A stretch of 44,475 bases of DNA from Bacteroidota bacterium. Lineage in GTDB: Bacteria; Bacteroidota; Bacteroidia; B-17B0; Aurantibacillaceae. The notes under the pieces were generated by a model. It was given only the letters and a program-made list of their open reading frames with translations. It was not told where the DNA came from and made no database searches. Positions 3,259-4,949 of the stretch are shown piece after piece. Within the stretch, counting starts at the first letter, position 1; every line of letters starts with the position of its first letter. Location of the stretch: NCBI GenBank assembly GCA_021323535.1, contig JAJONO010000042.1, positions 1 to 44,475 on the forward strand, written 5' to 3'. The position numbers were made by a program, and so were the translations under genes.

Positions 3259-3474
3259 CTGTTCATAAAGCACGAACATATTGAACCAATGGAAGATGGA
3301 AAATTGTTGTGGCACACCAATCCATTTTCCCTTTTACATCTTACATTTTAAGTCCGGCTATAAAATCCCGGTTTCTAACCACAGGATTAAATGCTTTATC
3401 AATTAATGATTATGATCCGCGGAAAAAGTATGTAGTTTTACAATAAGAAAAGAAACTAACTAAACACAAAGACA

Positions 3475-3956
3475 AACCCCGCATCGCCTTCGCATAAAGC
3501 TCCGGCGAACACGGTAAGATTCAAATTAAGCTAAAGACGGACTCCGTAAAGTCCGCAAACACAAAACTAAAACGCATCCCGCATCGCCTTCACTAAGCTT
3601 TAGCGGAGCGAGGTAAGATGCGCAGTAAACTAAAAGACGGACCCTGCGTGTCCCACGAAGCTTTAGCAAAGTGGGATAAGGTTCCAAAGAACTAAAGACG
3701 AATCCCGCATCGCCTCCGCGAAGCTTCAGCAGAGCGAGGTAAGATTCGCAGTAAGCTAAAGACGCACCCTGTAAGGTGCGCAAATGAGCCCCGCTCGCCT
3801 CCGCATAAAGCTCCGGCGAACACGGTAAGGCTCGCAGTAAACAAAAGACGGACCCCGTAAGGTCTGCACACAAAAGACGAGTCCCGTAAGATTCGCAAAA
3901 AAAAGAGACCCCGTTCGCCTTCGCTCAAAGCTACAGCGAACGCAGTAAGGTTTCAA
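3475..3956. repeat. Array of about nine imperfect hairpin units with covarying arms
   Basis: Units are separated by a linker resembling CTAAAAGACG. Each has a short variable left arm, CCCG or similar, then GTAAG and a right arm complementary to that unit's own left arm. Pairs visible: CGGACT/AGTCCG (3538-3543/3550-3555), CGCATC/GATGCG (3573-3578/3617-3622), CGAATC/GATTCG (3699-3704/3743-3748), CGCACC/GGTGCG (3763-3768/3775-3780), GAGCC/GGCTC (3786-3790/3829-3833), CGGACC/GGTCTG (3849-3854/3861-3866), CGAGTC/GATTCG (3878-3883/3890-3895), GAGACC/GGTTTC (3905-3910/3949-3954). One unit (about 3639-3685) instead keeps an inner stem TCCCAC/GTGGGA (3651-3656/3671-3676). Some units are short (loop CCGTAA); others carry a roughly 35-nt insert with AAGCTNC and its own inner stem. 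Confidence 0.75.
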
Positions 3957-3981
3957 AACACAACAGAAAATTGAATAAAAG

Positions 3982-4013
3982 TCCTCACTGAGAAAGTGAG
4001 GATTTTTGTTTTT
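3982..4013. terminator. Rho-independent terminator, probably bidirectional
   Basis: The 8-bp perfect stem TCCTCACT/AGTGAGGA (3982-3989/3995-4002) with loop GAGAA is followed by a T-rich run on the plus strand and preceded by AAAA, which is a T-run on the minus strand. It sits just beyond the stop of the minus-strand gene ending at 4017 and also closes any transcript crossing the hairpin array. Confidence 0.8.
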
Positions 4014-4016
4014 ATC

Positions 4017-4565
4017 TCAATCCTCGATTCTGAATTCAACAGGAAACTCTTTTTGTTTGAGGTAATGATGCAGGTCGTCAATTGTTTTTTCAGTCCAGTT
4101 TTCATCGTACGCATCCAAATCCAGTCCTACACAATAAAACATGGTTGTACTACTATTTGTTTCGATCTTCACATAGTTTCCACCAATCATTATCATCAAA
4201 CTTTGCCACCTGATTTTTTTTGTATCAATAAGGATATTCTTTATTTCATTCTTTTCAAAAACCAGTAATTTCCTGAACGGAAAATTTCCATTCACCACAA
4301 TAAACTTTTCATCCTCTATAGCAAAAGAGTTAGAATTCCTGGCATTCAAAAAATAAGAAGCAATAGCATAAGGAACTAACAACAAACTATACCATCCGGC
4401 ATAAATCATGAGTGGATATGCCGCGGAAGCTAACATGATTAAAACCATTATCCAGCTTTGAATCGGGCTATAAAAAACATCTTTTGTAGAAAATCCATGA
4501 GCACGAAGCATTTTATCAACCTGCTTATCGGTTAACTTTAGACTTACTCCAACTAGTGGTATCAT
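4017..4565 (-). CDS. Small membrane protein with two TM helices and a PH-like C-terminal domain
   Basis: The 182-residue protein is not recognised by name. A short cytoplasmic N-terminus (residues 1-35) precedes two closely spaced hydrophobic helices (about 36-52 and 55-71). A beta-rich soluble domain of about 110 residues follows, with the order expected of bacterial PH-like domains (strands FIVVNG, KLLVFEKNEIKNILID, MIMIGGNYVKIET) and a final helix (TIDDLHHYLKQK). The topology resembles YcxB/YdbT-type small membrane PH proteins, a comparison made by pattern only. It is a single gene with a terminator downstream at 3982-4013. No catalytic residues are evident. Confidence 0.65.
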   Translation of the reverse strand: MIPLVGVSLKLTDKQVDKMLRAHGFSTKDVFYSPIQSWIMVLIMLASAAYPLMIYAGWYSLLLVPYAIASYFLNARNSNSFAIEDEKFIVVNGNFPFRKLLVFEKNEIKNILIDTKKIRWQSLMIMIGGNYVKIETNSSTTMFYCVGLDLDAYDENWTEKTIDDLHHYLKQKEFPVEFRIED

Positions 4566-4949
4566 CGATTTTAATCTTTTGAAATTCTCTAATGTAAAAG
4601 TGAAAAATAAATACTTTAAAGCAAAATTAAAGATGTTTCTGGTTTAGCAATTTTTAAAATTTCTCTTATACTTATACGAGTTGATAGTCGATAGTTTATA
4701 GTCAATAGTTCTGGGCTGCCTAAACTATTGACTCGGGCTAAAAGTGTAGAGGGAGTTCTCGCAGAGGCGCGCAGAAGATTTCGCAGAGGTACGCAGAATT
4801 GTTATTCCCCGCACTCACTCTGACACTTCCTCTCAGATGTTTCTCGCAGCGCCTACGCTGAAGCTACGGCGTAGCGTCAAAGAAGCGCTAAGGTTTTCGC
4901 AAAGTTTCCAAAGCTGGATTTGGTTTCAAGCAGAGGCTCGCGATCATAT
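4566..4949. other. Intergenic region with three kinds of inverted repeat
   Basis: This 384-bp gap has no supported gene. It holds an exact 11-bp inverted repeat AGTCAATAGTT/AACTATTGACT (4700-4710/4723-4733) and a half copy of the dispersed CGCAGAGG-type repeat (4758-4797). It also holds a palindrome with arms CTACGC/GCGTAG around an AAGCT core (4853-4874). The AAGCT core resembles the inserts in the hairpin array at 3475-3956. Confidence 0.55.

Follow-up and report, generated by a model that had tools for sequence, protein, structure and literature searches.

A family of tandem hairpin arrays in Bacteroidota with a nearly fixed CYGUAA loop that recurs in queA leaders

Introduction

Small RNAs of the CsrB/RsmY type are free-standing transcripts composed of many hairpins, in which a fixed loop motif is carried on variable stems and a terminator closes the molecule. 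In autoregulation of the thrS type, a hairpin resembling an anticodon arm lies close to the start codon on the mRNA of a tRNA-handling enzyme. The substrates of QueA and Tgt are tRNAs with GUN anticodons, and the PyrR binding loop follows the consensus ARUCCNGNGAGGYU. For the TGT of E. coli, the minimal RNA substrate is a 17-nt tRNA-Tyr anticodon hairpin with a UGU loop, and in DNA hairpins with a suitable loop the sequence of the stem has far less influence (PMC10103133). Two tRNAs are bound by the dimer of this enzyme, for which hairpins joined in tandem by linkers of 10 or 20 nt compete better than single ones (PMC13416341); both sources were available in part. The small RNA Rfp18 acts by base-pairing, and nothing like the arrays treated here is described in the available part of that report (PMC9723704).

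Here, we describe an array of tandem hairpins in a contig of a member of the Aurantibacillaceae (GCA_021323535.1, contig JAJONO010000042.1; the whole stretch of 44,475 nt is called the window below), together with the family to which it belongs. Like the CsrB/RsmY RNAs, the array combines several hairpins, one conserved loop motif on variable stems and a terminator-like hairpin at its end. It differs from them in having a CYGUAA loop instead of the GGA motif, and in that single copies of the hairpin occur at queA. Since the loop motif is not GGA, the arrays are not CsrB members and would only work like them. By analogy with thrS, the queA mRNA may likewise be viewed as having an anticodon-arm-like hairpin near its start codon; queA, however, encodes a tRNA modification enzyme, and binding is putative here. 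PreQ1 riboswitches are also RNA leaders tied to queuosine genes, but no ligand-binding pseudoknot is part of the CCGUAA hairpin, the stems of which drift. A further likeness is to the tRNA-Tyr hairpin ECY-A1 and to dual TAG hairpins, whose loop C-U-G-U-A-A-A compares with C-Y-G-U-A-A on a free stem, and which the E. coli TGT dimer binds best as tandem copies with linkers of 10–20 nt (PMC10103133, PMC13416341). In the available parts of these sources such hairpins are part of a tRNA or designed constructs, whereas the arrays are natural and their loop is one nucleotide shorter, mostly C-C-G-U-A-A.

Two other known systems were rejected as candidates. The PyrR binding loop is a hexaloop hairpin of similar consensus; none of 30 pyrR upstream regions had a CYGTAA hairpin in a strand-aware scan, which returned four chance CNGNRA hairpins in three loci (positions were approximate in four loci at contig ends). 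As already noted from the window sequence alone, the array is not a CRISPR: it has no constant repeat with unique spacers, and its stems differ between units and pair within each unit.

Hairpin units in the window

Reading of the sequence combined with repeat searches resolved the array into ten tandem hairpin units, four short and six long (Table 1). The original prediction had placed at least eight units at 3538–3954; the array itself stood, whereas its extent proved larger, with a start about 65 nt before 3538. The two predicted size classes, the long one with a nested AAGCT hairpin, were both recovered. Short units are laid out as arm-CYGTAA-arm, with the core arms GGACT/AGTCC, GCACC/GGTGC, GGACC/GGTCT and GAGTC/GATTC. 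Long units contain the same loop letters, CCG...TAA (CTG in one unit), with a nested AAGCT-centred hairpin between the G and the T. Their outer arms pair well in five of six cases, the first long unit being the exception. Among the arrays scanned, the nested AAGCT hairpin in the CYGTAA loop was present only in the two arrays of the window genome, the second of which (L055) lies on contig C53 of this genome (G000). A lone AAGCT palindrome similar to the nested one was seen near 4853–4875 of the window.

Table 1. Coordinates of the window array, its units and associated features; positions refer to the window unless a locus is named
Feature	Location	Strand	Details
Promoter −7-like element	3433..3440	+	TAGTTTTA; read in the sequence
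Hairpin array	3473..3955	+	ten tandem units
Long hairpin unit 1	3473..3527	+	imperfect arms AAACC/GATTC
Short hairpin unit	3533..3561	+	loop CCGTAA, arms CGGACT/AGTCCG
Long hairpin unit	3568..3625	+	arms CGCATC/GATGCG; insert between loop G and T
Long hairpin unit	3632..3686	+	arms GGACC/GGTTC
Long hairpin unit	3693..3751	+	arms CGAATC/GATTCG
Short hairpin unit	3757..3785	+	loop CTGTAA, arms CGCACC/GGTGCG
Long hairpin unit	3787..3836	+	arms TGAGCC/GGCTCG; 5′ arm starts a few bases before 3787
Short hairpin unit	3843..3870	+	loop CCGTAA, arms GGACC/GGTCT
Short hairpin unit	3872..3899	+	loop CCGTAA, arms CGAGTC/GATTCG
Long hairpin unit	3904..3955	+	arms GAGACC/GGTTTC
Intrinsic-terminator-like hairpin with T run	3974..4012	+	inverted repeat; 3′ end of the proposed ~565-nt RNA
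Nested AAGCT inserts	window 3473–3955 and L055 5514–5560		
Two-hairpin version on IMG/VR contigs	L146, L156, L162, L168, L178, L191, L206, L223		
queA leaders with pseudoknot	L324 2495–2615, L327, L436, L437, L439–L441, L444–L447, L449, L451		
Pseudoknot pairings in queA leaders			e.g. TTGAGTC/GACTCAA, TTAAGTCG/CGACTTAA, TTGAGCC/GGCTCAA

The differing arms are self-complementary, as predicted. With G-T pairs counted, own-unit pairing extends to 48 of 50 arm positions, whereas arms shuffled among the units paired at 39.9 on average; a score of 48 was attained by one of 20,000 shuffles, the arms having been picked and typed by eye. The plus-strand RNA of 3460–4020, a stretch that takes in the terminator hairpin, folds more stably than its shuffled versions (z −5.5; none of 100 equally stable). 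The minus strand also folds above shuffles (z −3.5), which is expected because the units are palindromes.

Distribution of the arrays

The window array is a member of a family whose arrays consist of 2–21 tandem hairpins with the loop C-Y-G-U-A-A and strongly covarying stems. Fifty arrays were retrieved with their flanks, with a median linker of 18 nt between hairpins. Weak matches to the window array in two relatives of the same genus proved to be arrays that share the loop and lie at different loci. A search pattern made of two CCCGTAAG cores matched 8 of 40 genomes of the genus (one match in all for the reversed-pattern control) and 13 of 87 genomes of the family (two control matches; the match in G049 shows no array). 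At class level, a slightly stricter form matched 30 of 396 genomes and its reversed control 16 of 396. Scanning for two hairpins of at least 3 pairs within 130 nt, together with reading, confirmed arrays in 27 of these 30 (27/396 genomes); G113, G387 and G403 matched the pattern and showed no array when scanned. Four of 392 genomes sampled across the phylum matched. Two of the four lie outside the class, and their matches were read as arrays, one of eight hairpins and one of two. Six stretches from a single-unit pattern scan of genome contigs were treated as chance matches, since none had two hairpins by script.

At the curated (gathering) thresholds of Rfam 15, only tRNAs were detected in 16 array loci, and the window region gave only weak sub-threshold matches. 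The titles and abstract beginnings of the literature entries listed, with incomplete coverage of subscription journals, yielded no description of this RNA. A plasmid search with one array as the query returned no match.

The DNA of the window array is single-copy in its own genome. A covariance model of the hairpin gave at least eight matches with E up to 2 in the window genome (150 of 710 first-look candidates were scored): the two arrays account for six of them, the queA locus for one and another site for one. Outside arrays, only 10 hairpins with this loop and stems of at least 5 pairs were found on both strands of 0.64 Mb of retrieved DNA, mostly array flanks; permuted-loop controls averaged 2.9 per loop, and the 10 cover two loops.

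Stem covariation and loop conservation

Regions were selected by their core letters (C[CT]GTAA) and not by pairing. Among the 199 distinct units obtained in this way, which take in two loci that are not arrays (L141 and L142), pairing at stem positions 1–6 exceeded that of 3′-arm shuffles with z values of 8.8–12.7; a trace was left at position 7 (z 2.5) and nothing clear further out. In 102 aligned units, drawn from 157 sampled of 201 distinct units with L141 and L142 omitted, the covariation score was attained by none of 500 shuffles, and both-sided changes occurred in all six pairs (185 cells in total). Arms drifting unpaired in relatives, named beforehand as the outcome contrary to a selected structure, were not seen: the arms keep pairing.

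The loop is nearly fixed. Within array intervals, 104 of 142 distinct hairpins with a hexaloop had CCGTAA or a loop one change away from it (90 CCGTAA, 9 CTGTAA, 5 others); the hairpins were counted regardless of loop letters, within intervals that had been defined by CYGTAA hairpins. The position before the loop G ("33") was C in 182 and U in 17 of the 199 units. Free stems with a fixed loop are the pattern expected from selection by a loop-binding partner.

A nearly invariant loop in many copies per RNA would also suit a base-pairing small RNA, whose loops would be the seeds for pairing with UUACRG in mRNAs, tRNAs or a further small RNA. We give this reading very little credence: antisense seeds usually drift with their target, whereas the CYGUAA loop is constant across families, and the queA leader described below carries the same sense loop and not its complement.

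Flanking signals and neighbouring genes

Upstream of the window array lies a promoter-like element of the TAnnTTTG type, the −7 consensus of Bacteroidota (Table 1). TAnnTTT was present at most 80 nt upstream in 11 of 12 arrays of the genus (L055–L066); the twelfth begins at a contig end. Across all families, TAnnTTT[GA] occurred within this distance in 17 of 47 arrays, against 1–6 of 45 at five shifted control positions, and the strict TAnnTTTG in 6 of 47, against 0–2 of 45 in the shifted controls. A same-strand terminator followed 23 of 45 testable arrays, compared to 9 of 45 mirror-control positions and 26 of 500 windows drawn at random. In these simple tests about half of the arrays had no terminator, including the second array of the window genome (L055), and most had no promoter element. 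In some families the last array hairpin is itself terminator-like. A CGGCTTTAAAA-like stretch, a candidate element, was noticed about 70 nt before the promoter in the window (3355–3372) and in L057, L058 and L059.

The genes next to the arrays are varied, and those common to several families recur only as shared gene order. Four f59 genomes and G107 of f22 have ribBA next to the array, and one pair of proteins adjoins arrays of both f1 and f59. Because such neighbours are shared across families, inheritance of the locus looks likelier than mobility. The idea of a partner protein encoded next to the arrays was rejected, since the recurrent neighbour families listed look like shared gene order. 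One neighbour of the L122 array had a weak Pfam match to DUF772, and in the sample of neighbours put to Pfam there was no toxin family of the kind that accompanies type III toxin-antitoxin RNAs; neighbours this varied fit such a system poorly.

The original prediction had left two possibilities, a structured RNA and a REP-like mobile palindrome. The first is strongly supported by the covariation in the 199 and 102 units, the enrichment of promoter and terminator elements on the strand of the array and the neighbours shared across families. For REP-like or MITE-like palindromes amplified in tandem one may point to the palindromic units, to tandem duplications in some arrays (L060, L064, L107) and to the nested AAGCT palindrome of the window species. 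This origin appears barely credible given the single-copy array DNA, the few single hairpins elsewhere, the covarying stems and the conserved gene neighbours; nor was a transposase recognised by eye among the 14 most recurrent neighbour families listed.

The same hairpin was found in phage sequences. In 8 of 11 stretches from IMG/VR, a pair of hairpins directly follows a capsid-like gene, which we take to be T4-like; the second of the pair is terminator-like and has the same loop. The 11 stretches are the twelve requested minus L218, which was dropped by a stricter stem rule, and some of the eight are near-copies. At least two hairpins were present in 15 of 80 viral loci examined (L144–L223; at least 120 pattern matches), some of them by chance. 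Blast searches of phage collections returned either nothing or short, partial matches. The two-hairpin structures after capsid-like genes or as terminators may have a plain structural role.

These phage copies, ending in a terminator hairpin with the same loop, and the same-strand genes that lie within about 120 nt after some arrays (L057, L058, L059 and L122 among others) fit a cis-acting element, either a leader or attenuator of the next gene or a 3′-end structure protecting transcripts. This reading is very unlikely, because the next gene is on the opposite strand in the window, both nearest genes are opposite to the array in ten f59 loci, and 2–21 copies exceed what a terminator needs.

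Hairpins in queA leaders

The search of the window genome and its relatives with a covariance model, proposed at the outset, recovered more than the arrays. The model (R1), trained on array hairpins only, also found a single hairpin with a nearly constant score in the queA leader of 38 of 40 genomes of the genus (37 by script and one by reading; the matches retrieved from G033 and G034 were not queA). In most of them it reads UAAUC-CCGUAA-GAUUA and lies a few bases after a TTTGC promoter element. The gene product was identified as QueA by Pfam (PF02547, E 4e-139). The fixed loop, the wider family and the link to queA go beyond what the reading of a single sequence could see.

At class level, the queA-leader hairpin was among the R1 matches with E up to 1 in 8 of 30 genome entries. 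All of 66 class genomes, hand-picked as 30 from the array list and 36 others, contain queA. A C[CT]GTAA hairpin of at least 3 pairs was present in 23 of the 66 leaders (15 of 25 with a start located directly, 7 of 40 in a later set, and one more) and had at least 4 pairs in 21; as background, a hairpin of at least 4 pairs occurred in 447 of 20,000 random 206-nt windows of the retrieved DNA, arrays included. The queA-leader hairpins span 14 families, and in several genomes, such as G107, G394, G097, G114, G304 and G106, they abut the ATG start codon. Their stems covary as well: for 16 distinct types, typed by hand from 22 leaders, the covariation score was attained by none of 500 shuffles.

Arrays and queA hairpins were not clearly associated among these genomes (the hairpin is present in 13 of the 30 taken from the array list and in 10 of the remaining 36; Fisher p 0.21). 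In f59, f43 and f56, all genomes tested have arrays and none has the queA-leader hairpin. The leaders of tgt had no such hairpin in 29 of 30 cases, the single match being a 3-bp stem. With E values up to 1 allowed, ten queA loci contained no Rfam preQ1 family, the 14 listed matches all being below family thresholds.

Proposed function

The occurrence of the same hairpin in arrays and at the start of queA makes it look like a decoy or switch for the tRNA-modifying machinery. C-Y-G-U-A-A reads like positions 32–37 of the tRNA-Tyr loop C32-U33-G34-U35-A36-A37-A38. This likeness, together with the substrate and tandem-binding properties of the E. coli TGT as given in the available parts of PMC10103133 and PMC13416341, led us to propose that the array encodes a small RNA in which anticodon-loop mimics are repeated in tandem and which would titrate Tgt or QueA by binding, with the queA-mRNA hairpin serving as feedback. 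We give this proposal a probability of roughly 45%. The median 18-nt linker of the natural arrays would suit a dimer of this kind.

We infer that transcription of the plus strand would start at about 3445 and end at the terminator near 4012. The product would be a string of hairpins with an anticodon-like C-Y-G-U-A-A loop on stems of free sequence, and these would bind either Tgt or QueA, queuosine-pathway enzymes whose normal target is the anticodon arm of GUN tRNAs. At the single hairpin, at the 5′ end or start codon of the queA mRNA, the bound enzyme would lower queA translation, tRNA mimicry thus providing feedback. The array RNA, with its many hairpins, would titrate the enzyme in the manner of CsrB and CsrA, so that the queA feedback might be relieved or tRNA modification lowered.

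Such an assignment would add a layer of queuosine control in Bacteroidota beyond the known preQ1 riboswitches, and the arrays would be the natural counterpart of the engineered tandem TGT hairpins. With a hairpin common to arrays and queA leaders, this widespread family offers a direct and simple test of whether tRNA-modification enzymes are controlled by tRNA mimicry and RNA decoys. The phage copies suggest a viral use of the hairpins too.

The loop fits a Tgt substrate imperfectly. For the E. coli enzyme, the available part of PMC10103133 gives U33-G34-U35 in a 7-nt loop as the requirement, whereas the array loop has 6 nt and mostly C33. With the need of E. coli TGT for UGU, the hairpins would be poor Tgt substrates and perhaps only ligands; modification by the E. 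coli enzyme is not to be expected. The long units of the window, which split the loop between G and U, would spoil the anticodon mimic.

This misfit bears on a rival reading, in which the hairpins are Tgt substrates: the loop G would be swapped for preQ1 in the small RNAs and in the queA mRNA, and the modified hairpin would signal queuosine status, for instance by recruiting QueA. In its favour, the loop has G-U-A after a pyrimidine, as in tRNA-Tyr, the gene with the leader hairpin, queA, acts on the Tgt product, and the available parts of two reports describe modification of short hairpins by E. coli TGT (PMC10103133) and its preference for tandem copies (PMC13416341). The mostly C33, 6-nt loop makes it quite unlikely, with the qualification that the UGU requirement is that of the E. 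coli enzyme. A phylum-wide system, in which tRNA-guanine transglycosylase binds natural anticodon-loop mimics in small RNAs and at queA and even modifies them covalently, would be a long shot. If it were true, the reach of queuosine chemistry would extend to regulatory RNAs other than tRNA, and the capsid mRNAs of phages would bear the same decoys.

The loop misfit, the split long units, the arrays in genomes without a queA hairpin and the lack of a clear association led us to consider that another loop-binding protein is possible. Some other RNA-binding protein or factor would recognise the CYGUAA hairpin and be titrated by the arrays, with queA as one target and no tRNA mimicry involved. A fixed loop on free stems in tandem arrays is typical of protein titration, arrays persist where queA has no hairpin, and long units retain the CC/AA while splitting G-U. 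This alternative is unlikely on balance and a serious candidate nonetheless; queA was the only recurrent single-site gene recognised among the R1 matches read, which points to the queuosine enzymes, as in the proposal of Tgt or QueA titration.

Further observations on queA and CYGTAA hairpins

Beside ordinary QueA, 27 of the 66 class genomes encode a second QueA-like protein of 391–436 aa with an insertion near model position 266. CYGTAA-looped terminator-like hairpins were noticed near ordinary genes in L301, L303, L317 and L322. Many queA leaders of the genus have a second hairpin 3′ of the CCGUAA hairpin, whose loop pairs with a later stretch. An H-type pseudoknot of at least 6 pairs was present in 13 of 33 queA leaders tested (Table 1), and it is possibly a new queA leader element.
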